NCBI GenBank assembly: GCA_002368155.1
Contig: AP018180.1
Location: 2,141,947-2,205,946, forward strand
DNA length: 64,000 nt
DNA from: Nostoc carneum NIES-2107
GTDB lineage: Bacteria; Cyanobacteriota; Cyanobacteriia; Cyanobacteriales; Nostocaceae
Direction: 5' to 3'
Below are positions 15,966 to 41,251 of the stretch, in pieces; position 1 is the stretch's first letter; each line of letters opens with the position of its first letter. The translations under genes and the position numbers were made by a program. Below the pieces are notes generated by a model that saw only the letters and a list, made by a program, of their open reading frames with translations, had not been told where the DNA came from and did not search any database.

Positions 15966-16967
15966 TTATTGCTTCGCTATCCAATCATCTAATTTAAAAT
16001 CAGACTGGGCTAATTTTTGCGAAACTAAAAATTTCTTTGTCCCTTCTAAAAGTTGTACACCTTGATTAGGTAAAGGTTCTACTGGGAATTGTGTGATGGG
16101 AAAAGAAGCTTTCACCACATCAAGAGGATATCCTGATACATCAGCATGAAACTTATAGTAAGCCTCTGGATTGGCTTGAATATCTTTCACAGATGCTTGT
16201 TTAATCTGATTCCACTTTTGCGGTAAATCTGGATGTTTAGCCAAAAAATCTTCTGTAGCTACCGTAACACTAGTTCCGCGTAAGTCTGGATGTTGAATTG
16301 CTTCATCAATCACGGGATAGCCTTTTGCTTTTAACAATGGCCCAGTTCCCGTTGATGCTGCGATCGCAGCCACATCTCCCCGTTCTAGTGCGGCTTGGGC
16401 TTCACTTGGTAGCATATGGATAACTTTGACGCGATCGCTAATTCCGGCCTTTTGCAATAATCCAATTAAATAGCGATGCATATAGGAACCTTTAGAAGTA
16501 GCTACCTTCTGTCCTGTGAGTTCCGCTACAGAACTTGGGCCATTTTTCTTCGCTAATAACCAAGCATTTGTTCCTACTTGTTCTTGACCAATCAAGCGCG
16601 TGGGTAAACCTTTGGCTTTACCAACCAATGCAGGTGTATCACCATAAATTCCTACATCCACTTCCCCAGCTACTAAGGCTTCATTCAAGTTCGGCCCGTT
16701 AGGAAAATTCAGCGTTTTGATTTCTGTAATCCCTAATTTTTGCAATTCTGGTAAAAGTTTACCTTGATGCATTGCCCAGCCTGTCGGGCCAGTTGGTGTT
16801 TTCACTTTACCGTTAGTAATAAAACCTAAGCGCAATGTGGAAGTTTTTACTTCCGCCTGAGTTGTAGTTGTGGGATTGGGTACCGCTTGAGAAACAGTTT
16901 GATTAGAACTGCAAGCAGTAGTAAGAAATAACAAACTCGATACAGCTAGAGTTGGTAGTTTAAGCAT
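15966..16967 (-). CDS. Sulfonate-type ABC transporter substrate-binding lipoprotein (AsfC/SsuA-like)
   Basis: 333 aa lipoprotein: signal MLKLPTLAVSSLLFLTTAC with a lipobox Cys at 19. The fold is the NMT1/SsuA-like periplasmic binding type: LRLGFITNGKVKTPTGPTG, then LNEALVAGEVDVGIYGDTPAL, ELTGQKVATSKGSYMHRYL and SEAQAALERGDVAAIAAS. Such proteins bind sulfonates, sulfate esters or related anions outside the inner membrane. It is the third gene of the set flavoprotein-ferredoxin-binding protein, the same order as asfABC in Pseudomonas putida. No permease or ATPase stands next to it, so it may feed the ssuBC products at 35.5-41.3 kb. Confidence 0.85.
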   Translation of the reverse strand: MLKLPTLAVSSLLFLTTACSSNQTVSQAVPNPTTTTQAEVKTSTLRLGFITNGKVKTPTGPTGWAMHQGKLLPELQKLGITEIKTLNFPNGPNLNEALVAGEVDVGIYGDTPALVGKAKGLPTRLIGQEQVGTNAWLLAKKNGPSSVAELTGQKVATSKGSYMHRYLIGLLQKAGISDRVKVIHMLPSEAQAALERGDVAAIAASTGTGPLLKAKGYPVIDEAIQHPDLRGTSVTVATEDFLAKHPDLPQKWNQIKQASVKDIQANPEAYYKFHADVSGYPLDVVKASFPITQFPVEPLPNQGVQLLEGTKKFLVSQKLAQSDFKLDDWIAKQ

Positions 16968-17109
16968 GAAAAACGAACCGCAGAGGACACAGAGAACGCA
17001 GAGGAAAGAACAAAATTAAGTTAGTTGATCTATACGACAATCAAGAAGCCCGAGTCTATATAAATTTTTGACTCTTGACTCTTGACTTTGGACTCATTTT
17101 GCAGATTTA

Positions 17110-17439
17110 CTATTTCATCTGCTTGAGAATTTGGTGCGTAGAATCTTCTTGGGCAGAGGAAATGCGATCGCGTCCCCAACCAACATTTCTTCGATAGCTT
17201 CCCAAAAGTTCAGCCTCTTTCAGTAATGTTTCATTGACAGAATCCAGAGGATCAACTTGTGGTGCTACATATAAAGCATCCACCGGACAGTACAATTCAC
17301 ACATGAAACAGGTTTGACAATCACTTTGTCTAGCAATTGTAGGTGGTGCATCAGGCACTCTATCAAAAACATTTGTCGGGCAAACATTCACGCAAATATT
17401 ACATTGAATACACCGCGACGCACTAACTAACTCAATCAT
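17110..17439 (-). CDS. 2[4Fe-4S] ferredoxin (AsfB-like)
   Basis: About 109 aa from MIELVSASRC. Two complete cluster motifs are visible: CIQCNICVNVCP and CQTCFMCELYCP. The C-terminal 45 residues form an extension. A 12-residue longer frame exists from a TTG, but those codons are encoded by a dispersed repeat (17440-17525), so I reject it. It lies just after the flavoprotein gene and probably passes electrons to or from it. In P. putida the pair AsfAB is a sulfur-regulated reductase/ferredoxin needed for aryl desulfonation. Confidence 0.9.
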   Translation of the reverse strand: MIELVSASRCIQCNICVNVCPTNVFDRVPDAPPTIARQSDCQTCFMCELYCPVDALYVAPQVDPLDSVNETLLKEAELLGSYRRNVGWGRDRISSAQEDSTHQILKQMK

Positions 17440-17525
17440 ACGATTTTGGATTTTAGATTTTGCGGAAAGTTGCAAGGAGGGTTTCCCTCCGTAGCAAACT
17501 TTTCAAGACAGATTTTGGATTGAGA
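17440..17525. repeat. Dispersed repeat, family also at 55.8 and 57.5 kb
   Basis: Holds AGATTTTGCGGAAAGTTGC, a G/C palindromic middle (GGAGGGTTTCCCTCC) and CAAACTTTTCAAGACAGATT. The same parts recur at 55793-55940 (same reading) and 57522-57597 (inverted). Confidence 0.75.
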
Positions 17526-17597
17526 ATGAGGCGCATTGTTAAATACATTTAGCCTTTCTCTCTGCGCCTCTGCGTCTCTGCGTGAGAAAAAAGATAA

Positions 17598-19232
17598 CTA
17601 AGAAGACACGCCCACCAATTCTTTCTCACTCCCCAATCCCTCACTTCTCACCCAAACTTTGTCCAACCCACCACTAACTAAATAGTGTTGCTGATGAACA
17701 TCCATCTCTGGAAAATCTAGATGCTTGTGCATACCGCGAGTTTCTTTCCGTTCTAAAGCGCTGTTATACATCCATCGCGCTGTAGCTACCATTGCCGCAG
17801 CTTCCCGCATCTGAATAATATTTTGTTGATTTCCAGCTTGACTACTACGAATTTCTTGCCAGAGATGATCTAATCTCTGCAATGATCCAGTTAAAGTTTG
17901 TTCTGTACGGAAAAGATTGCGATCGTAGGGGAAAACCTCAGCTTGGGTGGCTTGGATCACCTCTTCAGCCTTAATTTGATGTTGGCTACCACTGATCAAT
18001 CCAGCCTCGCCAACAGCTTCTACAGGGCGCTGAGTTACCCCCTCTCCCAAACTGTGAGCGTATTCAGCCGCAGATTTACCAGCCCAGTAACCAGAAGAGA
18101 TTGCCCAAGCTGCATTATGACTACCACCACCAGTAAAGCCACCACAAATTAATTCTCTAGTAGCAGCATCACCAGCAGCGTAAAGTCCTGGGACGGATGC
18201 AGCACAACTAGAATCAACAATCCGAATCCCACCTGTACCGCGTACTGTTCCTTCTAAACGCAAAGTAACGGGGAAACGTTGATTAAAGGGATCAATACCC
18301 GCACGATCAAAAGGTAAGAAGAAATTAGGCTGTGCTTTTCGCATATTTGCCTGCATCTCTTCATTTGCTTTATCCAAGATGGCATAGACAGGTTGCGTCA
18401 ACAGCGTTTGGGCAATTACTGAACGCCCTCTTTGTGAACCTGCACCAGGTATAGGCGTGCCATCTTCGTATGTGAAAGTTGCCCAATTGTAAAACAGGGT
18501 TTTAGTAACCGAAGAAAAGGCGGGAGAGATGCCATATGCGTTAGAAAACTCCATCCCTGACATCTCTGCACCCGCTTCTGCTGCCATGAGGTATCCATCC
18601 CCAGTCAGGACATTGCAACCTAAAGCTTTACTCAAGAAAGCACAACCACCTGTTGCAATGATTACTCCACCTGCACGCACAACCCATTGCTTACCAGTCT
18701 GACGGTTAATTCCAGTTGCTCCAGCAACAGCACCTTTTGCGTCTACTAATAATTGCAAGGCAGGGCTATTGTCTAAAATTGTTACACCCACCCGCTTAAT
18801 TTGCTTCCGCATCAGGCGCATATATTCTGGACCTTGGAGACTGCGCCGATAGGGTTTACCCTCTTCATCAACTGGGAAAGGATAACCCCACTCTGCTAAT
18901 AGGTTGACGTTGGTATATGTCTGATCCAGTACCCGATCCATCCAGGTACGATTGGCTAAAAATCCCCCCAAGGCTTCGCGACTGGCTTTTGCAGCTTCTC
19001 TAGCTTCTGCATCAGGAGGTACATACCATACACCATTACCCGATGCTGCTGCACAACCACTCGTACCGCAGTAACCCTTATCGACTAAAACCACCTTGGC
19101 ACCAGCAGATGCAGCACTCCAAGCAGCCCACGTACCAGCTGGGCCACCGCCAATTACTAGAACATCTGTCTGTAAGTTATGGTCAACATCAATGGTAGAT
19201 GAATTCTGCGATCGCCAATGGGGACTACTCAT
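17598..19232 (-). CDS. FAD-dependent oxidoreductase, AprA/AsfA-like
   Basis: 544 aa of the succinate dehydrogenase/adenylylsulfate reductase flavoprotein family. The dinucleotide motif GGGPAGTWAAWSAASAG is near residue 28, followed by DKGYCGTSGCAAASGNG; the second FAD segment is GLYAAGDAATRELICGG near residue 350, followed by FTGGGSHNAAWAISSGYWAG. The pairing with a 2[4Fe-4S] ferredoxin and a sulfonate-binding lipoprotein matches the sulfur-controlled asf desulfonation genes of P. putida. A role in splitting C-S bonds of aromatic sulfonates is therefore likely but inferred. A shared promoter element lies upstream at 19377-19407. Confidence 0.85.
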   Translation of the reverse strand: MSSPHWRSQNSSTIDVDHNLQTDVLVIGGGPAGTWAAWSAASAGAKVVLVDKGYCGTSGCAAASGNGVWYVPPDAEAREAAKASREALGGFLANRTWMDRVLDQTYTNVNLLAEWGYPFPVDEEGKPYRRSLQGPEYMRLMRKQIKRVGVTILDNSPALQLLVDAKGAVAGATGINRQTGKQWVVRAGGVIIATGGCAFLSKALGCNVLTGDGYLMAAEAGAEMSGMEFSNAYGISPAFSSVTKTLFYNWATFTYEDGTPIPGAGSQRGRSVIAQTLLTQPVYAILDKANEEMQANMRKAQPNFFLPFDRAGIDPFNQRFPVTLRLEGTVRGTGGIRIVDSSCAASVPGLYAAGDAATRELICGGFTGGGSHNAAWAISSGYWAGKSAAEYAHSLGEGVTQRPVEAVGEAGLISGSQHQIKAEEVIQATQAEVFPYDRNLFRTEQTLTGSLQRLDHLWQEIRSSQAGNQQNIIQMREAAAMVATARWMYNSALERKETRGMHKHLDFPEMDVHQQHYLVSGGLDKVWVRSEGLGSEKELVGVSS

Positions 19233-19376: not shown

Positions 19377-19407
19377 TAAATTACGGTTAGTCGGTCAAGT
19401 TACAGTA
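19377..19407 (-). promoter_or_regulatory. Candidate sulfur-response element upstream of the asf-like operon
   Basis: Read on the minus strand it goes TACTGTAACTTGACCGA, CTAACCGTAATTTA. It aligns without gaps with 21369-21399 and 35181-35211. The TTGACC part looks like a -35 box, and TATTGT follows at a fitting distance. It lies about 145 bases before the flavoprotein start. Confidence 0.6.
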
Positions 19408-19634
19408 TTTATTTTCAATAAAAGCCTTGCATAATTTTTTATAAAAATCAAGAGGTGTTTTGATCAAACTTCAAATCCTCAATAAAAGCAGAGTTTTTTA
19501 AGAACAATCCCATAAAATTACTGCTTAAAATCGCAGATTTGTCCTAAAATCTGCCTATTATCGGTTTTTTACGAGTTTGCGTAAAAAATTAAATATAAGC
19601 CTAAAATTATAAAATTTTATAAAAAGTTTATTGT

Positions 19635-19820: not shown

Positions 19821-20861
19821 TTATGGCGCTGGATTGGGATAACTTGTATGAACTGCGTCTAACTCTGCTAAAATCTCTGGGTTAAGAACTACATTTACAC
19901 TTTCAATGTTTTCTTGTAGTTGTTGTAGGGTTGTAGCACCAATAATTGTACTACTCACAAACCAGCGACTCCGCACAAAAGCTAAAGCTAATTGAGCAGG
20001 TGTTAAATTATGTTTTTTGGCAATTTCCGCATAAGCTGCTACAGCTTCATTGACATTTTGTTTGAGATAACGTTGTCCAAAACCTGGAAATAAAGTTATG
20101 CGAGTATTTCCTGGGTTGCTATTTTCTATATACTTGCCTGTTAACAAACCAAATCCTAGCGGACTGTAGGCGAGTAAACCCACATTTGTGTAATGCGAAA
20201 CTTCTGCTAAAGCGGAATCAAATACGCGATTTAGTAAGTTATAAGCATTTTGAATGGAGACTACTTTAGGTAATCCCAACTTTTTCGCAGCATGAACAAA
20301 TTTAGTTACGCCCCAAGGAGTTTCATTACTCAAACCTATATAGCGGACTTTACCTGCTTTGATAACTTCTGCAAAGGCTGCTAATTGCTCAGAAATTTTC
20401 ACAGTTTCCCGTTCTAACTCTGGTTTATACTCTGTCTGACCAAAAGTTGGAACATAGCGATCGGGCCAATGAATCTGGTACAAATCGATATAATCTGTTT
20501 GCAAGCGCCTCAAACTATCATCTACCGCTTGCTGAATATTCTTACTATCAATTTTGATATTCCCGTCCCGCAGCCATTTAAATGGACGACCAGGCCCAGC
20601 AATTTTAGTAGCAACAATTAGTTGATCCCGTTGCTGTTTTCTCAACCATTCGCCAATATAAGCTTCTGTTTTCCCTTGAGTTTCGCCACGAGGTGGTACT
20701 GGGTACATTTCCGCAGTATCAATAAAGTTCACCCCGTGGGCAATAGCATAATCTAATTGCTGATGGGCTTCTTCAATAGTATTTTGATGCCCATAAGTCA
20801 TAGTTCCCAAACAAATTTCGGAAACTTTTAAATCACTTTCGCCGAGTTGGTTGTATTTCAT
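19821..20861 (-). CDS. Aldo/keto reductase, Tas-like
   Basis: 346 aa, the length of Tas/YghZ-type enzymes. The catalytic tetrad is complete: Asp48, Tyr53, Lys86, His131 (DTAEMYPVP, ATKIAG, QIHWPD). The NADPH-binding C-terminal part has STIIGATTLQQLQENI. It reduces aldehydes/ketones with NADPH; the substrate is unknown. It has only three Met and one Cys. Whether it belongs to the sulfur island or only sits inside it is open. Confidence 0.88.
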   Translation of the reverse strand: MKYNQLGESDLKVSEICLGTMTYGHQNTIEEAHQQLDYAIAHGVNFIDTAEMYPVPPRGETQGKTEAYIGEWLRKQQRDQLIVATKIAGPGRPFKWLRDGNIKIDSKNIQQAVDDSLRRLQTDYIDLYQIHWPDRYVPTFGQTEYKPELERETVKISEQLAAFAEVIKAGKVRYIGLSNETPWGVTKFVHAAKKLGLPKVVSIQNAYNLLNRVFDSALAEVSHYTNVGLLAYSPLGFGLLTGKYIENSNPGNTRITLFPGFGQRYLKQNVNEAVAAYAEIAKKHNLTPAQLALAFVRSRWFVSSTIIGATTLQQLQENIESVNVVLNPEILAELDAVHTSYPNPAP

Positions 20862-21368
20862 AATTTCTGCATCAATTCTCTTAATTACTTTTACAGCAGA
20901 TTACAAGTAGATGAGGTAAAACAATTAAATTTATATCAGCTAAAACACATCTAAGATTTGCAGATTAAATTTTATCAATTTCTGATGGGGTGGGCATCTT
21001 GCCTGCCCAAATCATGTAACTTAAATGCCAATTAGCTTATCAATCTTGTGGTGTGGGTATCTTAACCGCTACAGGTTTACCTTGTAAGAGAGAAAATCTA
21101 CTGGATTTCACCAAAAGTCAAACTATTAAATAATTTGGGATTTTAGATTTGGCATTTCTGGCTTATCCCATACATAAGATTTGGGAAAAATCTTAAAATA
21201 CTATTAGTTTACTGATTTACCGGAGTTAATACTAAAAAAGTATACTACCAGACATTACTCACAGAAACAAGTTTATTTTGGGAATTTTAAAAATCTAGAG
21301 AGTATGTAACTAAAAATACTCATTCTCTACAGTTTTTCTGAAATACTGGTATCCTGTAATATTAAATC
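20862..21368. other. Gene-free upstream region of the porin gene
   Basis: No gene is supported. At 20983-21010 it holds a piece (GGGGTGGGCATCTTGCC) of the dispersed palindrome seen complete at 33643-33702. The rest is AT-rich and unremarkable up to the regulatory element at 21369. Confidence 0.4.
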
Positions 21369-21418
21369 TACTAAAATTCGACCAAATTACCGTACTTTAA
21401 TCGCGGCAGGTAATTTGG
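21369..21418 (+). promoter_or_regulatory. Candidate sulfur-response element with inverted repeat upstream of the porin
   Basis: The element reads TACTAAAATTCGACCAAATT, ACCGTACTTTA (21369-21399). A perfect 10-base inverted repeat is built on it: CCAAATTACC at 21382-21391 and GGTAATTTGG at 21409-21418. This arrangement suits binding of a dimeric regulator. The porin start is 223 bases downstream, so a long untranslated leader is expected. Confidence 0.62.
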
Positions 21419-21641: not shown

Positions 21642-23474
21642 ATGAAAAAAATTTTTGGGAATTTATTGCTGACCTTACCAACGTTTGTAGTGCTGCTTTT
21701 ATTAGCAACTAGCGCGAAAACTCTTGCTCAAGAAGTTCCTGCTCAACAAGAAGCAGAAACTCCAATAACTAAATTACCAGTTGTAAATAAAACTGTGCTT
21801 GAGGCTAATTTAACAGCCTCAGCAACTACAGAGGCTCAGACAGAATCAAAACCATCTGTCATCGAAACAGCACCTTTGAGTCCCATTGCACAAGTTCCAG
21901 TTATACAGCCTACAACCTCAACACCAAATAGCGATTTAGGACAAGTCACTTCTGTCTCGCAACTATCTGATGTTCAGCCTACCGATTGGGCATTTCAGGC
22001 GCTACAGTCTTTAGTTGAGCGCTATGGGGTAATTGCTGGCTATCCCGATGGTACATTTAAAGGGAACCGCGCCCTCACAAGATATGAATTTGCGGCTGGT
22101 TTAAATGCAGCGCTTGACCGCCTCAACGAATTGATTGCAACTAGCACTGCTGATTTAGTGAGGCGAGAAGACTTAAATACCCTGCAAAAGTTGCAAGAAC
22201 AATTTTCTGCCGAACTCGCCACTTTACGAGGACGAGTAGACTCTCTCGAAGCGCGTTCTGCTAAGTTAGAAGCCACTCAATTTTCTACAACTACCAAACT
22301 GCAAGGTTTAGCACAATTCTTTATTGCTGATAGTTTTGGTAATCGTGTCGGTACAAACAGAGATAATACCAATACTTTTTTAGGCTATCGTGCAACCCTC
22401 GCTCTACAAACTAGCTTTACTGGCAGAGACCAGCTGACAACTAGCTTAACGGCATCCAACTTTGTGGCTTTAGGAGGCGCGACTGCTGTTGGTGGTACAC
22501 CGCTAACCGGAACCAACCAAACCCGGTTTAACACAGAACGCAGCACTGGTTATGCGGCAGACAGTAATCTTTATCTTGATAGATTGTTCTATCGCTTCCC
22601 ATTCGGGAAAAACACTACCGTCTGGGTAGGTGCAAGGGCACTGCAACCTGTAACTTTTGCCCCTACTCTTAATCCTTTAGTTGGTAACGCCCAAACTGGA
22701 ACCCTCTCCCGATTTGGACTCTTCAACCCTGTAATTTACCGACCAGGTTTTGACGGCGCTGGTTTAGCTTTCGCCCATAAATTTAGCAATCAACTCCAAT
22801 TCAACGCAGGTTATATCGTAGATGATGCTTTAGGTAGTAATCCTGGAGGAAACGCCACTAATGCAGGCGGATTGTTTGGTAATGCTTATGAAGCACTAGC
22901 ACAGTTAACTTTTACCCCTAGTGGCAGTCTAGATATAAGTTTCGCCTACGCCCGTAAATATTTCCCCACTCCGGTTTCTCCCGGCCCCAACGGTACAGTG
23001 GTTGTAGCGCCTGGGTCTGGTTACAACATTACTGGTGGTACAGGTACTGCTAACGCTGCTCGTCCATTTGGTTTAGCACCCACATCCTCAGATAACTTTG
23101 GGGTGCAAGTTAACTGGAAAGCTAGTCGTGCTTTTCATATAGGTGGCTGGTTTGGTTATACACAAGCCCATCAAGAAGGCACTAGTAATGATGCAAGCAT
23201 CATTAATGCGGCACTAACTCTGGCGCTTCCAGATTTGGGTAAGAAAGGTAATTTGGCTGGGTTTGTCTTTGGTATCCCACCCAAAGTTACGAGTAATGAC
23301 GTAGCTGCGCGCAGAGATAACGATACCTCTTTTCATATAGAGGGTTTTTATACATATAGATTCAATGACAACATTAGTGTGACACCAACTTTGTTTGTCA
23401 TTACTAATCCAGAAGCTAATGCTAACAACGATCCAATTTGGGTAGGTGCTTTGCGTACTACTTTCACTTTCTAA
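21642..23474 (+). CDS. SLH-domain OprB-type porin without Met or Cys
   Basis: 610 aa outer-membrane protein. Signal peptide (MKKIFGNLLLTLPTFVVLLL), a Pro/Thr-rich linker, one SLH domain at about residues 109-165 (DVQPTDWAFQALQSLVERYG, IAGYPDGTFKGNRALTRYEF), a coiled coil at about 170-212, then an OprB/iron-uptake-porin beta barrel. SLH binds peptidoglycan-linked polymer and the barrel admits small solutes. Apart from the initiator there is no Met, and there is no Cys at all, which is exceptional at this length. Together with the upstream element this points to a porin made during sulfur starvation, perhaps for sulfonates or sulfate esters. The start has no strong ribosome binding site. Confidence 0.92.
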   Translation: MKKIFGNLLLTLPTFVVLLLLATSAKTLAQEVPAQQEAETPITKLPVVNKTVLEANLTASATTEAQTESKPSVIETAPLSPIAQVPVIQPTTSTPNSDLGQVTSVSQLSDVQPTDWAFQALQSLVERYGVIAGYPDGTFKGNRALTRYEFAAGLNAALDRLNELIATSTADLVRREDLNTLQKLQEQFSAELATLRGRVDSLEARSAKLEATQFSTTTKLQGLAQFFIADSFGNRVGTNRDNTNTFLGYRATLALQTSFTGRDQLTTSLTASNFVALGGATAVGGTPLTGTNQTRFNTERSTGYAADSNLYLDRLFYRFPFGKNTTVWVGARALQPVTFAPTLNPLVGNAQTGTLSRFGLFNPVIYRPGFDGAGLAFAHKFSNQLQFNAGYIVDDALGSNPGGNATNAGGLFGNAYEALAQLTFTPSGSLDISFAYARKYFPTPVSPGPNGTVVVAPGSGYNITGGTGTANAARPFGLAPTSSDNFGVQVNWKASRAFHIGGWFGYTQAHQEGTSNDASIINAALTLALPDLGKKGNLAGFVFGIPPKVTSNDVAARRDNDTSFHIEGFYTYRFNDNISVTPTLFVITNPEANANNDPIWVGALRTTFTF

Positions 23475-23564: not shown

Positions 23565-23602
23565 CAATAAACTACGGTAACTTGATTAACTTAATGTATA
23601 AT
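23565..23602. promoter_or_regulatory. Candidate sulfur-response element (inverted) and -10 box
   Basis: On the minus strand 23565-23586 reads ATCAAGTTACCGTAGTTTAT, which matches the core of the element at 35181 at 19 of 22 positions by hand alignment. A TATAAT lies at 23597-23602 on the plus strand, and an 8-base inverted repeat (CTTGATTA/TAATCAAG) spans 23581-23606. The binding-protein gene starts 27 bases later. Confidence 0.5.
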
Positions 23603-23628
23603 CAAGGATCTCAGATAGGTAAATTCTG

Positions 23629-24726
23629 ATGATGAGTTCGATTTTTCAGCGTTTGTTCGCCGGATTGAATATATTCCGATCCACTCAATTTGCGCGTCAA
23701 AATAGTATCTTTTCCCTTGTGCGTCTTCCGGTGGCTGGGGCTTTTGTTGCTAGCTTATGTCTCAGCCTTTTATTTTCATCTTGCACAGCTAATAATGGCA
23801 GCAATAATACTACTTCTGCTAATAATTCTAATCAACCTAAAACATCTGTAGTCAAGTTTGGCTATCAAAAATCAGCAATTCTTCTCAAAAGTAAAGGCGT
23901 TTTAGAAAAGCGGTTACAACCTCAAGGTGTTTCTGTACAGTGGATAGAATTTCCTGCTGGGCCACAGCTTTTAGAAGCAATGAATGTTGGTAGTATTGAT
24001 TTTGGTCATACCGGAGAATCACCACCAATCTTTGCCCAAGCTGCGGGTGCATCATTAACATACATTGCGGGAATTGCGCCTAGCCCTGCGGGTCAAGCTA
24101 TTCTGGTTCCGCCAGATTCTCCGATTAAAACTGTCACTGACTTGAAGGGCAAAAAAATCGCTTTTCAAAAAGGTTCCAGCGCCCATTATATGTTGTTGCA
24201 AGTGTTAGAAAAATTTGGCTTGAAATACAGTGATATTCAACCAATATATCTACCACCTGCTGATGCAAGAGCAGCATTAGTAAAAGGAAGTTTAGACGCT
24301 TGGGTAATTTGGGATCCATTTTATGCTGCAGCACAAAAAGCAATTAATGCTCGTGTTTTGATTGATGGGACAGAAGTGAACAAGCAAGGAGGATATTACC
24401 TAGCTAGTCGCAAATTTGCTACAGAAAATCCCGAAATAATTAAGTCAATGTTAGAGGAAATTAAAACCCTTGAAGATTGGTCAGATAAACATCGAGATGA
24501 AGTAGCCGCCACGCTCTCACCTGTGTTAGGCATTGATTTAGAAACAATGCAAAAAGCTACACAGCGCAAGAAATTTGGTATTGTGCCCATTGATAGCAAT
24601 TTAATTGCTATACAGCAGAAAGTTGCAGATAAATTCTATGAATTGAAATTGATTCCTAAACAAATTGATGTGAAGGAAGCAATGCTGTCACCAGAACAAT
24701 ATGCAGCTTTTTCACCAAAGATATAG
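23629..24726 (+). CDS. Aliphatic-sulfonate-type substrate-binding lipoprotein (SsuA-like)
   Basis: 365 aa with a long N terminus before a lipobox-like SLLFSSC near residue 53. The mature part is SsuA-like: VVKFGYQKSAILLKSKG, IEFPAGPQLLEAMNVGSIDF, then HTGESPPIFAQAAGA, DLKGKKIAFQKGSSAHYML and GSLDAWVIWDPFYAAA. It binds alkanesulfonates or similar sulfur compounds in the periplasm. It is clearly a paralogue of the protein at 37203 (shared GESPP/AESPP, FAQAAG and LPP blocks). Unlike that one, it has seven Met and two Cys. No permease lies beside it. Confidence 0.9.
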   Translation: MMSSIFQRLFAGLNIFRSTQFARQNSIFSLVRLPVAGAFVASLCLSLLFSSCTANNGSNNTTSANNSNQPKTSVVKFGYQKSAILLKSKGVLEKRLQPQGVSVQWIEFPAGPQLLEAMNVGSIDFGHTGESPPIFAQAAGASLTYIAGIAPSPAGQAILVPPDSPIKTVTDLKGKKIAFQKGSSAHYMLLQVLEKFGLKYSDIQPIYLPPADARAALVKGSLDAWVIWDPFYAAAQKAINARVLIDGTEVNKQGGYYLASRKFATENPEIIKSMLEEIKTLEDWSDKHRDEVAATLSPVLGIDLETMQKATQRKKFGIVPIDSNLIAIQQKVADKFYELKLIPKQIDVKEAMLSPEQYAAFSPKI

Positions 24727-24816: not shown

Positions 24817-25206
24817 TTTATATTTAATCTAATAAATTGACGTGTAAAATACTTGATTTCTGCCGTTGTTTATGAGAAAGTCTGAATTAAGATTAAATAC
24901 GATAAATCGATAGAGTTTAAGTAAATAATGCTTATTTGGAAAAGCCTACTAGCTGTAGGTCTAGATTCTAAACTATGCATTAGTCCTAACAACATACTAT
25001 AGACAGTCATGCGTTCCGTTAGGTTGCCGCAGGCATCGCACTTTTCACAGCATCACTAAGTGCCTACATGATGGTTGAAAAAAACTAGGGGATTGTTATA
25101 GAAATCCGTTGAGTCACAAAAATTCTGACAAGCTTGGACTCTCAAAAGTTTTTCAATTACGAATTAGTAATTATCTCGACGATTTTTTTATCAGTGGAGA
25201 CATATT

Positions 25207-31120: not shown

Positions 31121-31936
31121 ATGGCACCGTTAACAGAAGCAAGCAGATTGGGAATTCGTCCGTTTGCAGATAGTGACAAAGTGGAATTGCGGTTTGTCAA
31201 AACCGCAGAAGAAGTACGGTCAGTTATTTGGTCTGCATATCGCCAAGTTTTAGGTAATGAGCATCTGTTTCAAAGTGAACGGCTATCTAGTGCAGAATCA
31301 CTTTTGCAACAGGCGCAAATTTCTGTGCGGGATTTTGTGAGAGCGATCGCACAATCCGAACTGTATCGCCAGAAATTCTTCTATTCCAACTCGCAAGTGC
31401 GCTTCATTGAACTGAATTATAAGCATTTGCTGGGTCGTGCGCCTTACGATGAATCAGAAATTGCCTACCACGTTGATATCTATACTTCTCAAGGTTACGA
31501 AGCCGAGATTAACTCCTACATTGATTCTGTAGAGTATCAACAAAACTTTGGTGATGCTATAGTGCCGTACTATCGGGGTTATCAAACTACAGTAGGACAA
31601 AAAACTGCTGGCTTTCCTCGATTCTTTCAGTTGTATCGAGGCTATGCAAATAGCGATCGCGCCCAAAACAAAACCAAAGGGCAATTAACCTGGGATTTAG
31701 CAAAAAATTTAGTATCCCCCATTTATCCTGCTGATGCTGGCTCCTTAACTGGCGTATCAACAGGAAATCGTGGTGGTAATACTTATCGGATTCGTACCAC
31801 ACAAGCTGCTTCTCCCAACTCACCACGCATTCGCCAAAGCATTACCGAAGTAGTTGTCCCATTCGATCAGTTATCGAATCGTTTACAACAACTCAATCGC
31901 CAAGGGCGCAAGGTAATTAGCATAGCTCTTTCTTAG
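31121..31936 (+). CDS. Phycocyanin rod linker, sulfur-free (first)
   Basis: 271 aa, typical for 30-kDa rod linkers. The N-terminal linker domain (residues 1-180) has [16 protein letters not shown], the core [17 protein letters not shown] and [20 protein letters not shown]. The C-terminal CpcD-like domain (about 215-271) ends [20 protein letters not shown]. It joins phycocyanin hexamers in the phycobilisome rod. There is no Cys, and only the initiator Met. It is of the CpcC/CpcH/CpcI kind; I do not decide between H and I. Confidence 0.94.
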
Positions 31937-32222: not shown

Positions 32223-33089
32223 ATGCCAATTACAACAGCTGCATCCAGACTTGGAACTTCTGCATTTAGTAACGCTGCTCCTATTGAATTACGTTCCAAC
32301 GCCAACAAAGCAGAAATTGCACAGGTGATTGCGGCTATTTATCGTCAGGTTTTAGGTAACGATTATGTGTTGCAATCTGAACGTTTGAAGGGTTTGGAAT
32401 CGCTCCTGACTAACGGGAATATTACAGTTCAAGAATTTGTTAGGCAGTTAGCTAAATCAAATCTATACAAATCCAAGTTTTTTTCTAACAACTTTCATAG
32501 CCGTGTGACAGAGCTAAATTTCAAACATTTGCTTGGTCGCGCTCCCTATGATGAATCTGAGATTATCTATCATCTAGATTTATATCAAACCAAAGGCTAT
32601 GAAGCTGACATTGATTCTTACATCGATTCAGCAGAGTACCAGACAAATTTTGGCGAAAATATTGTGCCTTATTATCGGGGATTTAACAATCAACTAGGGC
32701 AAAAAACAGTAGGCTTTACCCGAATTTTTCAACTATATCGCGGTTATGCAACAAGCGATCGCTCTCAAATCCCTGGAGCATCAGCTCGTTTAGCTAGCGA
32801 ATTAGCCAGAAATAGCGCATCAACGGTTATTGCTCCTGCTGGTAGTAACAATGGTTTTGCTTATCGTGCTTCTGTCAAAGGACAAACCCCCAGCACAGCA
32901 TTTCAAGGTTCGCAAGCCTTTGGTTCAGGAAGGCTGTATCGCGTTGAAGTGGCAGCTATTTCTCAACCTGGTTATCCCAAAGTTCGCCGCATCAACAAAG
33001 CCGTAGTTATCCCCTACGAAGAACTATCCAATTATTTCCAACAAGTTCAACGTCGCAATGGCAAAATTGCCAGCGTGACACCGCTTTAG
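32223..33089 (+). CDS. Phycocyanin rod linker, sulfur-free (second)
   Basis: 288 aa. Same architecture as the preceding gene: linker domain ([40 protein letters not shown]) and CpcD-like C-terminal domain ([36 protein letters not shown]). No Cys and no Met but the initiator. Two different linkers mean that rods with at least two Cpc3 hexamers can be built. AAGGAG precedes the ATG. Confidence 0.94.
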
Positions 33090-34133: not shown

Positions 34134-34955
34134 ATGCCTAATTTTACCGAGTTGCTTCATCATCGTTATGGTGGTAGCCCAGTTAATGCAGAGCTACCTG
34201 TAAATGACTTCATAAGTTCTCTGTTATCTCACCGTTCAATTCGGGCTTACTTACCGGATGCTTTACCCTCAGGAACCTTAGAAACCTTAGTAGCAGCGGC
34301 GCAGTCAGCAGCTACATCCTCAAATCTCCAAACATGGAGTGTGGTAGCGGTGGAAGATCCCAGCCGTAAAGAAAAGCTATCTCAACTAGCTAATAATCAA
34401 GCCCATATTCGCCAAGCTCCTTTATTTCTGGTATGGTTAGCAGATTTAGCGAGGCTGGCGCATATCGCAGAAAGTCGGGGATTACCTCATGAAGGTTTAG
34501 ATTATCTCGAACTATTTTTGATGGCGGCGATTGATGCAGCATTAGCAGCGCAAAATGCTGTAGTAGCGGCGGAGTCGTTAGGATTAGGAACAGTGTATAT
34601 TGGTGCGTTGCGTAACAAGCCCGAAGAAGTGGCGCAGGTTTTAGAATTACCAAAACAAGTATTTGCTGTTTTTGGTTTGTGTGTGGGTTATAGCGATCGC
34701 ACTGTGGAAACAGCGATTAAACCACGCTTACCCCAAACAACTGTGTTGCATCGCGAAACTTACAAACTAGCAGACAAAGAAGAAGATATCGCTTCTTATA
34801 ACCAAGCGATGGAAGCTTTTTATCAGTCTCAGAAGATGAGTGTCCCTGGTGATTGGACAGAACATTCCGCTAAACGCGTGGCTTTTGCTCAGTCCTTATC
34901 GGGGCGCGATCGCTTGCGGGAAGTTTTGAATAATTTGGGTTTTGAACTACGATAA
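34134..34955 (+). CDS. NfsA-like NADPH-dependent nitroreductase / flavin reductase
   Basis: 273 aa. Nitroreductase fold of the NfsA/Frp type: the FMN-contacting HRSIRAYLPDALPSGTLETL, AAQSAATSSNLQTWSVVAVE, ESLGLGTVYIGALRNKPEEV and FGLCVGYSD. Such FMN enzymes reduce quinones, nitro groups or free flavin with NADPH. Between the cpc operon and ssuB it could supply reduced flavin or handle an aromatic left after desulfonation; that is inference. Its own terminator follows. Confidence 0.87.
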   Translation: MPNFTELLHHRYGGSPVNAELPVNDFISSLLSHRSIRAYLPDALPSGTLETLVAAAQSAATSSNLQTWSVVAVEDPSRKEKLSQLANNQAHIRQAPLFLVWLADLARLAHIAESRGLPHEGLDYLELFLMAAIDAALAAQNAVVAAESLGLGTVYIGALRNKPEEVAQVLELPKQVFAVFGLCVGYSDRTVETAIKPRLPQTTVLHRETYKLADKEEDIASYNQAMEAFYQSQKMSVPGDWTEHSAKRVAFAQSLSGRDRLREVLNNLGFELR

Positions 34956-35033: not shown

Positions 35034-35180
35034 AAGTTTCCTCCTCTGCATCCTCTGCAAAGGGATAATTTATTTGTTGATATTTCCCCAATTATGTAGC
35101 TATTAACACATTTTGTAAGTTTTTTTATTACAAGCTACTTGCCTTTTTGCCCCACCTATGTGAGACTACTAGAAATATAC

Positions 35181-35219
35181 TACTAAAGTTCGACCAATTT
35201 ACCGTAGTTTACTGATAAT
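35181..35219 (+). promoter_or_regulatory. Candidate sulfur-response element and promoter upstream of ssuB
   Basis: TACTAAAGTTCGACCAATTT, ACCGTAGTTTA at 35181-35211 agrees with 21369-21399 at 28 of 31 positions by hand count. GATAAT follows at 35214-35219, so TTCGACC could overlap the -35 region. The remaining bases up to ssuB (35530) have no gene. Confidence 0.62.
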
Positions 35220-35529: not shown

Positions 35530-36333
35530 ATGACATATCCAGTACGAGGGATGCATTTAAAACTACAAGGGCTAAGCAAGTCTTTTGGAACAAAGACTGT
35601 TTTGCAGGATATTGATTTGGATATTCAGCCCGGGGAATTTGTCGCCATAGTTGGGCGCAGTGGTTGCGGTAAAAGTACAATGTTACGGCTAATTGCTGGG
35701 TTAGATGCAGCTACTGGCGGCGGTGTGTTTTTAAATGATCAGCATTCCCATCATCGGATTAATCCAGATATTCGGATGATGTTTCAGGATGCGCGATTAT
35801 TACCTTGGCAACGCGTACTCACAAATGTGGAGTTAGGCTTGTTAGGTGCTAACTCCAAAGTTTATGCCAAGCAAACAGCTTTGCAAGTTTTGCGCGCTGT
35901 GGGATTAGAAGATAGGGCTAACGAATGGCCTGCTGTCCTTTCTGGAGGACAGCGCCAACGGGTAGCATTAGCTAGAGCCTTAGCCAGTAGCCCAGCTTTA
36001 TTGCTGCTAGATGAGCCTCTAGGTGCATTGGATGCGCTTACACGTATTGAAATGCAGCAATTAATAGAGCAGTTATGGCAAGAGCAAGGATTTACTGCAT
36101 TATTAATTACTCACGATGTGGAAGAAGCTGTTGTAGTAGCAGACAGAGTCTTACTCATTGAAAACGGTCAGATTGGTTTAGATTTAGAGATTGATTTGCC
36201 ACGTCCACGAGTTAGAGGAGATATTGCACTAGCTCAGACAGTGGAGAAGATTTTACAACGAGTGATGGGTCAGCCAGAGCGCGAATCAGAATTACCAGCA
36301 GATTCATTTATCTTCTCATCTACAACAGTATAA
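35530..36333 (+). CDS. ssuB: Sulfonate ABC transporter ATP-binding protein
   Basis: 267 aa. Walker [10 protein letters not shown] (residues 42-50), Q-loop near [11 protein letters not shown], signature [15 protein letters not shown] near 137, Walker [13 protein letters not shown], and the switch His in [10 protein letters not shown]. The RLLPW after the Q-loop is typical of SsuB/TauB. It energises uptake of sulfonates with SsuC at 40403. AGGAG precedes the ATG. It contains normal amounts of Met (seven). Confidence 0.94.
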
Positions 36334-37202: not shown

Positions 37203-38330
37203 ATGCAAGGTCTGAAACATAAATTTGAATCCTGGAAACGCGGAAATATTACTCGTCGTTCAGCGTTATTTGCTCTTGGTTATAGCTTAGCTTTATCTAC
37301 AACGCTATTTAGTTGCAGCAGCACACCAGATAAAACTTCTCAAAAACAAGGTGATTCAGCTTCATCTAATACAGCTACTACGGCTAATACCACAAATACA
37401 GCTAGTAACTCTAGCAGCCAGAAAGTTATTAGAATTGTCCGTTCTAAACAACTAACTGCGCTAGCTGTTGTTGAAAAACAAGGTAAGCTCGAAAAAAGAT
37501 TAGCAGACTTGGGATACAAGTTAGAATGGCCTGAATTTGCAGCAGGCCCACAACAATTAGAAGCATTAAATGCCAATGGTTTAGATATTGCTTCCACAGC
37601 AGAATCACCCCCAGTTTTTGCCCAAGCGGCGGGAACACCTTTAGTTTATTTAGCTGCAAACTCCTCTGATGGTCAAGCAATTTCACTTTTAGTTCCTAGC
37701 AAATCTAACATTAAAAGCGTTAAAGATTTAAAAGGAAAAAAAGTCGGTTTCCAGAAAGCATCTATTGGTCATTACTTGTTAGTTAGAGCTTTAGAAAAAG
37801 AAGGACTAAAGCTATCTGATGTCCAGTCTGTTTTTCTGCCACCTCCAGATGCTAATGTGGCATTTAACCAAGGTAAGATAGATGCTTGGTTTATTTGGGA
37901 ACCATTTGTTACAAGAAACGTGCAAAACAAAGTCGGTCGCGTACTCATAGATGGCGGTAACGGTTTGCGTGATACCAACAATTTTTACTCCACAACCCGC
38001 AAATTTTATCAAGAAAATCCAGAAGTAATCAAAGCCTTTTTGGATGAACTACAAAAAGCTCAAATTTGGTCTAAACAAAATCAAAAAGAAATTGCAGAAT
38101 TGCTTGCACCAGTGACACAACTGGATGTACCAACATTAGAAGCAATGCATAGTAAATATGATTTCTCGTTAGTCCCAATCACCGATAAAATCATTACTAA
38201 GCAACAAGAAGTGGCTGACAAATGGTACTCTCTAGGACTTATACCGAAAAAGGTGAATGTCAAAGATGGGTTTTTAACACCTGAAGAGTACGCCAAAATT
38301 ACGCCTCAAGATGTTTTGGCGAAGCAGTAG
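37203..38330 (+). CDS. ssuA: Sulfonate-type substrate-binding lipoprotein, low in sulfur
   Basis: 375 aa. N terminus with NITRRSALFALGYSLAL and lipobox LFSC (Cys39), then a Ser/Thr/Asn-rich linker of about 35 residues. The binding domain is SsuA-like: FAAGPQQLEALNANGLDI, TAESPPVFAQAAGTPL, DLKGKKVGFQKASIGHYLLV and GKIDAWFIWEPF. It delivers sulfonates to SsuBC. It has just two Met and one Cys (the lipidated one), against seven Met in the paralogue at 23629. ssuB lies upstream, tauD downstream. Confidence 0.93.
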   Translation: MQGLKHKFESWKRGNITRRSALFALGYSLALSTTLFSCSSTPDKTSQKQGDSASSNTATTANTTNTASNSSSQKVIRIVRSKQLTALAVVEKQGKLEKRLADLGYKLEWPEFAAGPQQLEALNANGLDIASTAESPPVFAQAAGTPLVYLAANSSDGQAISLLVPSKSNIKSVKDLKGKKVGFQKASIGHYLLVRALEKEGLKLSDVQSVFLPPPDANVAFNQGKIDAWFIWEPFVTRNVQNKVGRVLIDGGNGLRDTNNFYSTTRKFYQENPEVIKAFLDELQKAQIWSKQNQKEIAELLAPVTQLDVPTLEAMHSKYDFSLVPITDKIITKQQEVADKWYSLGLIPKKVNVKDGFLTPEEYAKITPQDVLAKQ

Positions 38331-38484: not shown

Positions 38485-38504
38485 TTTCAAAATTCAAGAA
38501 TACT

Positions 38505-39368
38505 ATGCCCACGCTAACGTTAACAGAAGTTCAAATTACGCCCTTAGATGCGCCTTTGGGTGCTGTGGTTACAGGATTAGATACTAGTCAAGCTGTTGCG
38601 CCGGAAATTATTTTACAACTAAAGCAAGCATTGCGCGATCGCCATATTCTCATCTTTAAGAATCAACAGCTAACTGATGAGCAGTTTTTGAATTTTGCAT
38701 TCTACTTTGGCTCTCTATTTGTACCACCCCAGGATATTCCTGTGTTGGCTTCGGAAACAGGCGCTACACCAGTGATTATTCCTGTTTCTAATGTCGATGG
38801 TGGTTATACAGGTACAGGTGAATTGGCTTTTCATGCAGATCACCATTGGACTCCCTACCCCTCTAGCGGTTCTCTACTCTATGCATTGGAAGTTCCTTCC
38901 CAAGGCGGTGAGACTTCTTGGCTGAATTTGAATTCGGCCTATGAGACTTTAGATGAAGCTACCAAGCGTCAGATAGCAGACTTACAGTTGATTACTTACA
39001 ATCCATTTTTGCGAGACAGGAATGCACCTCGTTCCGATTATCGCCTTGATAAAAGTATTCCATTAATTAGTCCTGTCTATCTCCATCCTTTGGTACGCAC
39101 ACATCCAGAAAGTGGCAAAAAAATTCTATACCTCGATTACGCCACAGAAGTAGAGGTAGTTGGCTTAGAACCTCAAGAGGGAGCAGAATTAATTGCTCAA
39201 TTGCGTCAACATCTCAATCAGCCACAGTTTTATTATCAACATAAATGGTCTGTAGGCGACATTGTTTACTGGGATAATCAAGCTACTTTGCACCACAGAA
39301 CACCATTTGACCCTAATGAAAGACGGATATTAAAGCGTGTAAGTTTAGCTGGAAGCCGTCCGTTTTAG
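38505..39368 (+). CDS. tauD: TauD/TfdA-family dioxygenase without internal Met or Cys
   Basis: 287 aa, the standard length. The Fe(II) facial triad is visible: His110 and Asp112 (FHADHHW) and a distal His at 263/264 (ATLHHRTPF); the 2-oxoglutarate-binding Arg is in NERRILKR. Such enzymes oxidise taurine or other alkanesulfonates and release sulfite. The protein has no Cys and only the initiator Met, which I would expect only by selection. It sits in the ssu gene set, so a sulfonate is the likely substrate; a sulfate ester (AtsK-like) is the alternative. Confidence 0.92.
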   Translation: MPTLTLTEVQITPLDAPLGAVVTGLDTSQAVAPEIILQLKQALRDRHILIFKNQQLTDEQFLNFAFYFGSLFVPPQDIPVLASETGATPVIIPVSNVDGGYTGTGELAFHADHHWTPYPSSGSLLYALEVPSQGGETSWLNLNSAYETLDEATKRQIADLQLITYNPFLRDRNAPRSDYRLDKSIPLISPVYLHPLVRTHPESGKKILYLDYATEVEVVGLEPQEGAELIAQLRQHLNQPQFYYQHKWSVGDIVYWDNQATLHHRTPFDPNERRILKRVSLAGSRPF

Positions 39369-39503
39369 TCATTGAGATTGTGAGTGGATAACTGCAATAT
39401 TTTTGATTGAATTAATATCATTTTTAGAATTATTGCAGTTAATCACTCACCTGAAAAGTATATTCTTTAACTTAAATTTTGACATTAATCTGACATTAAA
39501 TCT

Positions 39504-40322
39504 ATGACAACAATTCCTGCTTATGACCCAACTTTATTTGAAGGTGCAGCTTGGTACTATGCTCGTTATCGGCCACAGTATCCACCTGTGTTATTTGATT
39601 TGCTCACCGAGAAATTTCAATTAGATGGACAAGGAAGATTACTAGATTTAGGTTGTGGCGCAGGCTTAATTGCTATTCCTTTACGGGATAAATTCAAAGA
39701 AGTTATCGGTTTAGACCCCGATGCAGATATGCTTTTAGAAGCGCAACGCCAAGCTGCAGAAGTCGGCGCAACAAATATAAGCTGGGTAAATGATAGAGCA
39801 GAAAATATTTCTCTAGCTGTCGGTAAATTCCAACTAGTGACAATTGGTAGAGCTTTTCACTGGATGCAACGAGAATTAGTTATAGAACATATCTACAATT
39901 TACTTTCTAATAATGGTGCTTTGGCGATTATCAAAACTTATGAAGACCCCTGGAATAGCGAACATCCGTGGAAACAAACTGCCATTTCAGTTGTACAGCG
40001 TTGGTTAGGTGAAAAACGCCGCACGGGTCAAGGTGGTCAAGGAGAATGGCAACCTTTAGCAGTCCCTCACGAAGAAATTATAGAGAAATCATCATTTAGT
40101 CGCCAAGCCAACTATGAAGTTAAATATGAGAAATCTTGGACAATTGGCTCATATATTGGCTATCTATATTCCACAGCTTTTTGTTTACCATCTTTCTTTG
40201 GAAATGCGGAAAATAGAAAAAAATTTGAAGCTGACCTTAGAGAATCTCTGCTAAAAGTAGAACCCTCTGGAAAATTTACAGAAGAACTTCCTATTACTGT
40301 CATAGCTGCTTGGAAAAATTAA
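39504..40322 (+). CDS. Class I SAM-dependent methyltransferase
   Basis: 272 aa. SAM-binding motif LLDLGCGAGLIAIPL near residue 46, acidic VIGLDPDADML, and the post-motif GRAFHWMQRE. It is of the UbiE/small-molecule kind (methyltransferase 11/25). The substrate is unknown. It lies between tauD and ssuC with gaps of 135 and 80 bases, so it is likely co-transcribed. Why a methyltransferase belongs to a sulfonate operon is not clear. Confidence 0.88.
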   Translation: MTTIPAYDPTLFEGAAWYYARYRPQYPPVLFDLLTEKFQLDGQGRLLDLGCGAGLIAIPLRDKFKEVIGLDPDADMLLEAQRQAAEVGATNISWVNDRAENISLAVGKFQLVTIGRAFHWMQRELVIEHIYNLLSNNGALAIIKTYEDPWNSEHPWKQTAISVVQRWLGEKRRTGQGGQGEWQPLAVPHEEIIEKSSFSRQANYEVKYEKSWTIGSYIGYLYSTAFCLPSFFGNAENRKKFEADLRESLLKVEPSGKFTEELPITVIAAWKN

Positions 40323-40402
40323 TCAATTTTGTCATTTGTTATTTGTCATCAGTCCTTTGTCTAATGTCCACATACGCTGCTATCAAGCAATAGAACATTT
40401 TC

Positions 40403-41251
40403 ATGAAAACCATCTCATCTTCTCCTAATAGCTTTCCATCAAGGCAAACAATGAAAAAGCAAAAATTAAAATATCAATTTCTCAAAAATCCCCAAATTCA
40501 ATCTTTCATCCCTTGGTTAGTACCCATATCCATTATTATTGTCTGGCAATTACTATCTTCTATTGGTGTAATTCCTACAAGAATTTTGCCTGCGCCTTTA
40601 AGTGTGCTGGGTGCTGCTATTCATTTAGCCCAAACTGGTGAACTATTTAAAAATATTGGTATTAGTGCTGCTAGAGCAATTTCTGGCTTTTTAGTAGGTG
40701 GCAGTATTGGCTTTATTTTAGGTTTAGTAAATGGTATTTCTCCGATTGCTGAGAAATTACTAGACACCTCTATTCAAATGTTACGTAATATTCCCAACTT
40801 AGCATTAATCCCCTTGGTAATTTTATGGTTTGGGATTGGGGATGAAGCTAGATTATTTCTTGTATCTTTAGGTGTAATGTTCCCGATTTATTTAAATACC
40901 TTTCATGGTATCCGGAGTGTAGATTCTGGATTAATTGAAATGGGAAAAGTTTATGGTTTAAATACTTGGGGTTTATTCTGGAGAATTATTCTCCCTGGCG
41001 CATTATCTTCTATTTTGGTAGGTGTGCGTTTTTCTTTAGGTATCATGTGGTTGACACTGATTGTTGCTGAAACTATCGCTGCTGATTCGGGGATTGGTTA
41101 TATGGCAATGAACGCCAGAGAATTTATGCAAACAGATGTTGTAGTCTTAAGCATTTTGCTATACGCCTTATTTGGGAAATTAGCAGACGTAATCGCCAGA
41201 TCCTTAGAAAGTTATTGGTTGCAATGGAATCCCAGTTATTTGAAGGGGTAA
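40403..41251 (+). CDS. ssuC: Sulfonate ABC transporter permease
   Basis: 282 aa (266 from the second Met, MKKQKLKYQFLKN). Six hydrophobic segments, the first at about residues 38-55 (WLVPISIIIVWQLLSSIG). The EAA-like loop is GKVYGLNTWGLFWRIILPGA near residue 185, as in SsuC/TauC. It forms the membrane channel for SsuB. It is the only permease of this type in the window, so it may serve all three binding proteins. Confidence 0.93.
   Translation: MKTISSSPNSFPSRQTMKKQKLKYQFLKNPQIQSFIPWLVPISIIIVWQLLSSIGVIPTRILPAPLSVLGAAIHLAQTGELFKNIGISAARAISGFLVGGSIGFILGLVNGISPIAEKLLDTSIQMLRNIPNLALIPLVILWFGIGDEARLFLVSLGVMFPIYLNTFHGIRSVDSGLIEMGKVYGLNTWGLFWRIILPGALSSILVGVRFSLGIMWLTLIVAETIAADSGIGYMAMNAREFMQTDVVVLSILLYALFGKLADVIARSLESYWLQWNPSYLKG

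Follow-up and report, generated by a model that had tools for sequence, protein, structure and literature searches.

Scavenging genes and sulfur-free proteins in one island of Nostoc carneum: probably part of a sulfur-starvation regulon that spans the genome

Enzymes of sulfur assimilation are low in sulfur amino acids, a regularity known as the Baudouin-Cornu principle; the asfABC genes serve arylsulfonate desulfonation; and CysR of Synechococcus elongatus, a Crp-family protein, stands with the plasmid-borne srp genes for a cyanobacterial sulfur-starvation response with clustered genes. Sulfur sparing is reported from Rhodococcus IGTS8, in which assimilatory proteins are low in cysteine (Cys) and methionine (Met) and MetY lacks Cys (PMC8557817), and from Calothrix/Fremyella/Tolypothrix PCC 7601, whose antenna proteins, when sulfate is low, are poor in the sulfur amino acids (PMC4424289, citing Mazel & Marliere 1989 and Gutu 2011). 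Sulfur sparing has been reported, in short, from an antenna operon and from some enzymes. Here we describe an island at positions 15,966-41,251 of a 64,000-nt window, the window being the whole stretch of DNA analyzed (C1:2,141,947-2,205,946 in the 9.36-Mb genome of Nostoc carneum NIES-2107). The island holds genes for organosulfur scavenging, a third phycocyanin operon (cpc3) and several proteins with almost no Met or Cys; very likely it belongs, as a single locus among others, to a sulfur-starvation regulon extending over the genome, with a 36-bp operator, a candidate CymR-like Rrf2 regulator and sulfur-free products made in quantity.

Compared with these systems, the island resembles PCC 7601 in its sulfur-depleted antenna proteins; it differs in that cpc3 lies inside a scavenging island, and in that depletion reaches a porin, a haloperoxidase-like (VHPO-like) protein, a TauD-family protein and dozens more, with a shared operator. 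Rhodococcus and the Baudouin-Cornu principle offer proteins low in Cys and Met, whereas here the count is zero rather than low, the non-assimilatory porin and VHPO-like protein are included, and one operator serves. The CysR/srp system differs in its gene set and in the regulator proposed. Organic-sulfur genes are overrepresented in symbiotic Nostoc, with an alkanesulfonate monooxygenase figuring in moss colonization (PMC7784912); that gene set is comparable, but the portion of the paper available mentions neither sulfur-free composition nor a shared operator. Searches of an open-access library, which lacks most subscription papers, brought up sulfur-sparing antennae, CysR, SrpI and sulfonate use in Nostoc, but no Rrf2 sulfur operator, sulfur-free porin or sulfur-free VHPO-like protein from cyanobacteria.

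Met and Cys were counted beyond the start codon; open reading frame (ORF) starts are the first possible ones, and counts are perhaps slightly high. The background is 400 kb of the same genome (20 regularly spaced samples of 20 kb); targeted regions were examined besides. Background ORFs of at least 150 aa average 2.64% Met+Cys, and none of the 155 of at least 250 aa reaches zero. In the island there is no Met or Cys in the porin (21642..23474, + strand; 609 residues), in the TauD-family dioxygenase (38505..39368, +; 286 residues) or in either of two rod linkers (31121..31936 and 32223..33089, both +; PF00427, PF01383). The VHPO-like protein (25207..27030, +) has two Cys and no Met in 606 residues; CpcB (29457..29978, +) has two Cys, CpcA (30099..30590, +) one, and neither has Met (both PF00502). 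Fewer than 0.6% Met+Cys is found in 6 of 17 island ORFs versus 7 of 232 background ORFs of at least 150 aa (Fisher p=5e-5).

Paralogues in the same genome are richer: 4-10 Met+Cys (0.66-1.83%) in 11 other OprB porins, 17 in a VHPO paralogue and, in the other two cpc operons, 8-9 in CpcB, 3-4 in CpcA and 4 and 2 in the linkers. Among 12 TauD-family places, five in the island and in a second sulfur region have 0, 0, 0, 0 and 2, and five free-standing proteins outside have 7-12; the other two sit in long frames and were left uncounted. An earlier note on this DNA had proposed that depletion extends beyond phycocyanin, and called for comparison with homologues; the comparison bears the proposal out, orthologues in the family (below) being low as well.

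The second region, far larger than the island, spans some 157 kb (C1:7,781,000-7,938,600; loci L303 and L295-L301). By BLAST to annotated relatives, it is rich in genes of the SsuA-like, TauD, Asf-like and LLM kinds and also contains a sulfatase. Seventeen of its 125 ORFs of at least 150 aa are free of Met and Cys, and 28 of 119 of at least 200 aa have at most one, versus 1 of 191 in the background (p=5e-12); in the 3' flank Met/Cys-free ORFs number 0 of 26.

The two regions share a 36-bp palindrome, found de novo, with the consensus TAAAATACGGTAAATCGATCAAnTTACnGTAnTTTA from an alignment of 29 sites. Its dyad, ATAC-N15-TTAC, occurs in 17 of 117 upstream regions of the island and the large region and in none of 228 background upstreams. 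A weight matrix, which replaced a first regular expression that was too strict (1 of 18 island upstreams), gives 34 of the 117 scores of 19.9-38.5 bits, a site shared by two divergent genes being entered for each, whereas no background upstream scores above 9.2; there is no match above 15 bits in the 400 kb sampled elsewhere in the genome. By itself the half-site TACNGTA is not enriched in the window (11 versus 9.5 expected). The window holds six operators, listed without strand and all inside the island, and outside it no match exceeds 15 bits (best 14.9, at 42,960). They lie upstream of the asfA-like gene (19377..19412; 31.3 bits, R1 E=3.7e-7 in the window), between the aldo/keto reductase and porin genes (21194..21229), upstream of the porin (21364..21399), of the ssuA-like gene (23568..23603) and of the VHPO-like gene (24893..24928), these four by weight matrix and sequence model, and upstream of ssuB (35176..35211; 31.5 bits). 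TauD comes after the ssuB site, with none directly before it. Of the shared promoter element that the earlier note had announced, giving no sequence, this much stands: it is present at the porin, VHPO-like and uptake genes, and the phycocyanin operon is without it. The idea that the regulon is this island fares similarly; the six sites are here, but with 27 sites above 15 bits in the large region the unit is genome-wide.

Because window upstreams were part of the de novo set, independent evidence has to come from elsewhere than the window sites: from Rrf2 loci, other genomes and sites held out in this one. A scan of the genome with the sequence model scored 150 of 7145 candidates, and 7 of 17 held-out positions (E<=0.05) adjoin evident sulfur genes: cysE/rrf2/cysK, ssuD, an SsuA-like substrate-binding protein (SBP; BLAST only), OAH sulfhydrylase, TauE/SafE twice, and 2-phosphosulfolactate phosphatase. 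The same-genus relatives fetched preserve both gene order and sites. Members of the genus that share the island include C. brevissima NIES-22, Calothrix membranacea FACHB-236 and Nostoc linckia FACHB-104. A site lies within 700 bp upstream of the VHPO-like gene at 40 of 55 cyanobacterial loci; 14 of the 15 others have at least one asf/ssu/tauD-like ORF nearby, and so the gene may there sit within an operon. Among 52 unique porins (duplicates merged), those with a site have a median of 0.51% Met+Cys (n=32) versus 1.12% without (n=20; p=4e-5); three sulfur-poor porins scored as without (L230, L233, L234) have sites in the adjoining gap. As a separate observation, two operators (C1:3,152,629 and 3,154,527; L330) stand around two genes, one for a NIL-domain protein and one for a regulator of the Crp/Fnr family, which may amount to a second level of control.

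The candidate regulator is an Rrf2-family protein whose gene lies between cysE and cysK and is flanked by sites. Of 170 genomes with a match, the 30 best loci were fetched (that of the window's genome included), and every one has an operator at most 110 bp upstream of the Rrf2 gene; short as these loci are, 29 include cysE and 25 cysK. A divergent Rrf2 copy in genome G236 also lies between cysE and sites, and elsewhere the cysE/rrf2 cluster (G308, G276, G311) or the rrf2 gene (G254, G297) adjoins TauD/SsuA-type genes. Across the order, a strong site (E<=1e-4) occurs in 27 of 148 genomes, all 27 with an Rrf2 match, versus 94 of 148 overall (p=9e-7). Outside the family, six genomes have an Rrf2 match (46-52% identity) with a site in the 120 bp upstream of it (G020, G069 and G087, of one genus; G055; G115, whose match has one internal stop; G121). 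Within the family, 58 of 59 genomes with a VHPO-like gene (at least 54% identity; weaker matches dropped in 12 of 71) have a close Rrf2 (at least 64%, as in 104 of 170 genomes with a match; a partial match with stops in G205 left out), versus 104 of 172 overall (p=8e-16). These cross-genome p-values are inflated, the genomes being related and descent uncorrected.

The protein belongs to the Rrf2 superfamily (TIGR00738, 110.6 bits over 73.3). It has a single Cys, hence lacks a three-Cys Fe-S site; from what we take to be the biology of Rrf2 proteins, it would more probably act together with CysK, as CymR does, than sense through an Fe-S cluster. CymR, the cysteine regulator of Firmicutes, is likewise of the Rrf2 family, and here the gene is next to cysE and cysK with sites at sulfur genes; the differences are a 36-bp palindrome in cyanobacteria, and predicted targets that include a porin and sulfur-free enzymes. 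To judge from these sequences, a CymR-like Rrf2 protein encoded beside cysE/cysK is most likely the operator's regulator and would bind it. The operator at the island, at the large region and at Rrf2 genes points to one genome-wide sulfur regulon.

Several findings weigh against this reading. At ten of the 17 held-out sites no sulfur gene is evident among the neighbors, and these sites count as misses; the few neighbors identified there are a Met/Cys-free GST, a sulfur-poor unknown, a NIL-domain gene and a Crp/Fnr-family gene. Two of the seven good ones (7,774,924 and 7,777,258) are just outside the large region, two sulfate-binding proteins, both sulfur-poor, stand at weaker sites (E 0.6-2), and the scan scored that small share of its candidates. 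Sixty-seven order-wide genomes have an Rrf2 match and no strong site; in other families the site-adjacent Rrf2 (46-52% identity) is not always the genome's best match; and our Rrf2 protein reaches 92.1 bits on the CymR model NF047409, whose cut-off is 195. No operator lies in the 1.2 kb upstream of the window cpc operon (best 1.5 bits). A VHPO-like protein of Sorangium is sulfur-poor (one Met+Cys) with no asf/ssu/tauD-like ORFs nearby. Finally, AsfA, AsfB, SsuB, SsuC and cysK are not depleted though in operator-bearing units (Met+Cys in the island: AsfA-like 19, AsfB-like 11, SsuB 7, SsuC 8; also SsuA1 8 and an alpha/beta hydrolase 8), and the porin of L240, which has sites in the adjoining gap, has 11. 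Regulation and depletion therefore do not coincide gene by gene.

The alternative that survives best, though we think it unlikely, gives the operator to another regulator, such as the Crp/Fnr-family protein next to the site at C1:3154527, and makes the Rrf2 gene merely a target. That 196-aa Crp/Fnr-family gene does have a site, and CysR of Synechococcus elongatus is a known sulfate regulator. However, the adjacency of site and Rrf2 gene persists across families and in divergent Rrf2 copies, the Crp-family link is seen once, and 36 bp is presumably long for a Crp site.

A second alternative, which we rate as improbable, makes the genes mere neighbors: sulfonate scavenging would be regulated as known, the protein families would be low in Met and Cys by ancestry, and cpc3 would be a passenger. 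Depletion is indeed family-wide. In same-family genomes fetched, 30 VHPO-like orthologues (55-100% identity) have 0-4 Met+Cys in the aligned part and 30 TauD orthologues 0-2; porins have 0-2 at 67% identity or more (n=9) and 0-7 below (n=21). The earlier note had named equally low homologues outside such islands as grounds for giving up its view, and taken literally these exist: among the 55 cyanobacterial VHPO-like loci are 15 in whose flanks BLAST finds nothing like asf, ssu or tauD, and these still show 0-3 Met+Cys. Yet 14 of those 15 carry the operator, and at least two (L153, L154) adjoin a sulfatase-like gene; depletion thus follows the operator, not linkage to asf/ssu/tauD. A dependence of depletion on such physical linkage was dropped as an explanation. 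Conserved gene order and sites in the genus also count against mere proximity. The original observation is confirmed as real, its breadth understated and the roles of phycocyanin and physical linkage overstated.

Phycocyanin lends the neighbor explanation some support. In composition the operon is a sulfur-sparing cpc3: CpcA and CpcB lack Met and retain a few Cys, and the genome has normal cpc operons as well. That it shares the operator in this genus was dropped as an explanation for want of a site in the 1.2 kb upstream, and in G229 it lies on the other, far side of asf. A close match to a cpc3 linker is absent from two of eight genus members (G198, G281), and the sulfur-poor cpc operons of G181, G077, G268, G203 and G158 (L235-L239) lie elsewhere, with no sites or labeled sulfur genes nearby. 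In Fischerella muscicola PCC 7414, however, a sulfur-poor cpcBA lies near a VHPO-like gene, and cpcB has a site 113 bp upstream, the only such case found. Together with cpc3 in the genus island, this indicates that phycocyanin was drawn into the regulon or its neighborhood at least twice. Any response of the window cpc3 to sulfur would have to come about through some other control. Of the earlier proposal of one regulon that both finds sulfur and rebuilds proteins without it, the porin, VHPO-like and uptake genes remain under one operator, and the cpc operon falls outside it.

A third alternative, more doubtful still, holds that Met and Cys were lost because they are oxidizable, in exported or oxidizing settings, with sulfur saving incidental. 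The VHPO-like protein and the porin do look exported, TauD-type enzymes use O2, as we understand them, and phycocyanin presumably works near photosystems. The sulfur-poor set was picked by low Met+Cys, and hence only other residues and frames serve as a test. In these genes in-frame ATG/TGT/TGC codons run at 0.16-0.24 per 100 codons versus 2.41 in the background, about 10-fold low, while the other two frames are normal (ATG/TGY 5.2-6.9 versus 5.6-5.8); depletion acts at the amino-acid level. The oxidizable residues Trp, Tyr and His are not depleted (ratios to background 1.03, 1.04 and 1.17), which argues for selection on protein sulfur rather than avoidance of oxidation or general cost. SDR, GST, ADH and amidase proteins next to sulfur genes likewise contain hardly any Met and Cys, or none; the VHPO paralogue that keeps the acid-base His is the one with 17 Met+Cys; and there are 5-12 in each of 16 Bradyrhizobium/Microvirga members of the VHPO-like family, which have no asf/ssu/tauD-like ORFs nearby. 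That abundant or secreted proteins merely save cost in general, not sulfur in particular, is very improbable, although the rather low Met+Cys of porins everywhere lends it something: carbon and nitrogen per residue differ little from background, as does the Trp/Phe/Tyr content (other costly residues are not low), and neither sampled ORFs of at least 250 aa nor paralogues ever reach zero.

The VHPO-like protein is homologous to the Corallina vanadium bromoperoxidase 1qhb (phmmer E=5.7e-63), and its predicted fold (mean pLDDT 71) matches that enzyme (Foldseek TM about 0.72, E about 1e-29 to 1e-30, 30-32% identity). K427, R435, R555 and H561 (and H488) are kept in it and in all 77 relatives aligned (3 of 80 loci, L193, L200 and L218, gave no long ORF); we take the His to be the vanadate ligand and the Lys and Arg to hold the oxyanion. 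In contrast with 1qhb and the paralogue L022, the window protein and all 77 have Ala (Ala495) in place of the His of the (S/A)GHA motif, presumably the acid-base residue, and the window protein is without Met. It is therefore not filed as a haloperoxidase, but with a family that lacks the acid-base His. A twin-arginine-type signal (an RR motif) is read in it by eye, and, as an exported protein, it may handle oxyanions or organosulfur compounds.

Outside the cyanobacteria, sulfur-poor members occur in Polaromonas, Sorangium, Acidovorax (two), a Moraxellaceae metagenome-assembled genome (MAG) and Rhizobacter (1-3 Met+Cys); these six are poorer in Met+Cys than the 16 Bradyrhizobium/Microvirga members (p=2e-4, among related sequences). 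In the two Acidovorax and the Moraxellaceae MAG (L219, L222, L223) the His-less gene stands directly before an asfA-like gene, whose product is 60-64% identical to our AsfA-like protein; in Polaromonas and Rhizobacter an SsuC-like ORF is in the flank. The asfA-like adjacency suggests that the His-less family shares a role in sulfonate use. Beside VHPO-like genes in other genomes, sulfur-free or sulfur-poor neighbors include LLM monooxygenases, DszC/SfnC-like acyl-CoA dehydrogenases, FMN reductase, arylsulfotransferase and sulfatase, as well as GST, SDR and amidase.

In the regulon as we propose it, a putative Rrf2 regulator with a predicted operator at its own promoter would, when cysteine or sulfate is short, let the cell switch on organosulfur scavenging by an outer-membrane porin, sulfonate-binding proteins, SsuBC, TauD, Asf, monooxygenases and a sulfatase. 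Genes for Cys and Met synthesis, and probably those for sulfate uptake, would be opened along with them. Products needed in quantity (the porin, the exported VHPO-like protein, some binding proteins and soluble enzymes) would have been selected to near-zero Met and Cys; in this genus the same saving may have brought the third phycocyanin operon into the island, its control here being by other means. Induction by sulfur limitation and high abundance of the sulfur-free proteins are what we infer from this arrangement.

We lean, with some reserve, toward a broader statement: that an Rrf2/CymR-type regulon is widespread in the family, with traces in other cyanobacterial families; that membership predicts elemental composition, a porin, light-harvesting proteins (in Fischerella, with this operator), scavenging enzymes by the dozen and the His-less exported family having been purged of Met and Cys; and that this family is an unrecognized component of sulfonate use. 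With a control site, a candidate regulator and a target list, the notion that a nutrient rewrites the proteome becomes testable gene by gene in named, sequenced cyanobacteria. The sulfur response gains a candidate regulator and a candidate outer-membrane organosulfur channel, and the His-less family a likely place in sulfonate use. This may also bear on Nostoc-moss symbioses.

The scavenging genes of the island were all located where the earlier note had put them: an asfABC-like set, three sulfonate-type SBPs, SsuB, SsuC and TauD along with the phycocyanin operon. On the minus strand, an AsfC-like sulfonate-type binding lipoprotein (15966..16967; PF09084, TIGR01728 below cut-off; 1 Cys, 3 Met), an AsfB-like 4Fe-4S ferredoxin (17110..17475; PF00037 and others; 8 Cys, 3 Met, not sulfur-poor) and an AsfA-like FAD-dependent oxidoreductase (17598..19232; PF00890; 6 Cys, 13 Met, not sulfur-poor) are adjacent, as in asfABC. 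A curated Asf model is absent among their profile matches; the last we take to correspond to Pseudomonas AsfA. A sulfur-poor aldo/keto reductase follows (19821..20861, -; PF00248; 1 Cys and 2 Met in 345 aa). The porin scores over cut-off as an SLH-OprB 'iron uptake porin' of the por_somb family (PF04966, PF00395, NF033921).

All on the plus strand are an aliphatic-sulfonate SBP, SsuA (23629..24726; over the cut-offs of TIGR01728 and NF008588), an NfsA-like nitroreductase (34134..34955; PF00881, NF008033 209 of 223 bits), an SsuB-type ATPase (35530..36333; NF008420 356 bits, below its cut-off of 395), a sulfur-poor sulfonate-type SBP (37203..38330; PF13379, PF09084; 1 Cys and 1 Met in 374), a class I methyltransferase (39504..40322; PF13649) and an SsuC-type permease (40403..41251; matched at PF00528 only, in a Pfam scan; no Cys, 8 Met). 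The TauD-family protein (PF02668, 188.4 bits, cut-off 27) falls below the taurine dioxygenase equivalog NF007104 (149.7 of 313 bits).

Neighboring genes include a contractile injection system cluster (3704-11063, -) with a baseplate OB-domain protein, a tube protein of the system, two gp19 tube proteins, a sheath and a Pvc16-like protein; a 397-aa protein within it (9277-10470) has one Cys and one Met and no Pfam match. On the other side (42392-47159, -) stand an HlyD-type adaptor (no Cys, 5 Met in 519) and a C39-peptidase ABC exporter with a cNMP domain. Two Mb off, at C1:4,238,787-4,240,542 (L329), ssuD and a nearly sulfur-free FMN-reductase-like protein (187 aa, one Met) have an operator; in four relatives (L226, L229, L243, L244) a 386-aa ORF and a Met/Cys-free 187-aa ORF, sizes matching this pair, come after ssuC within the island.

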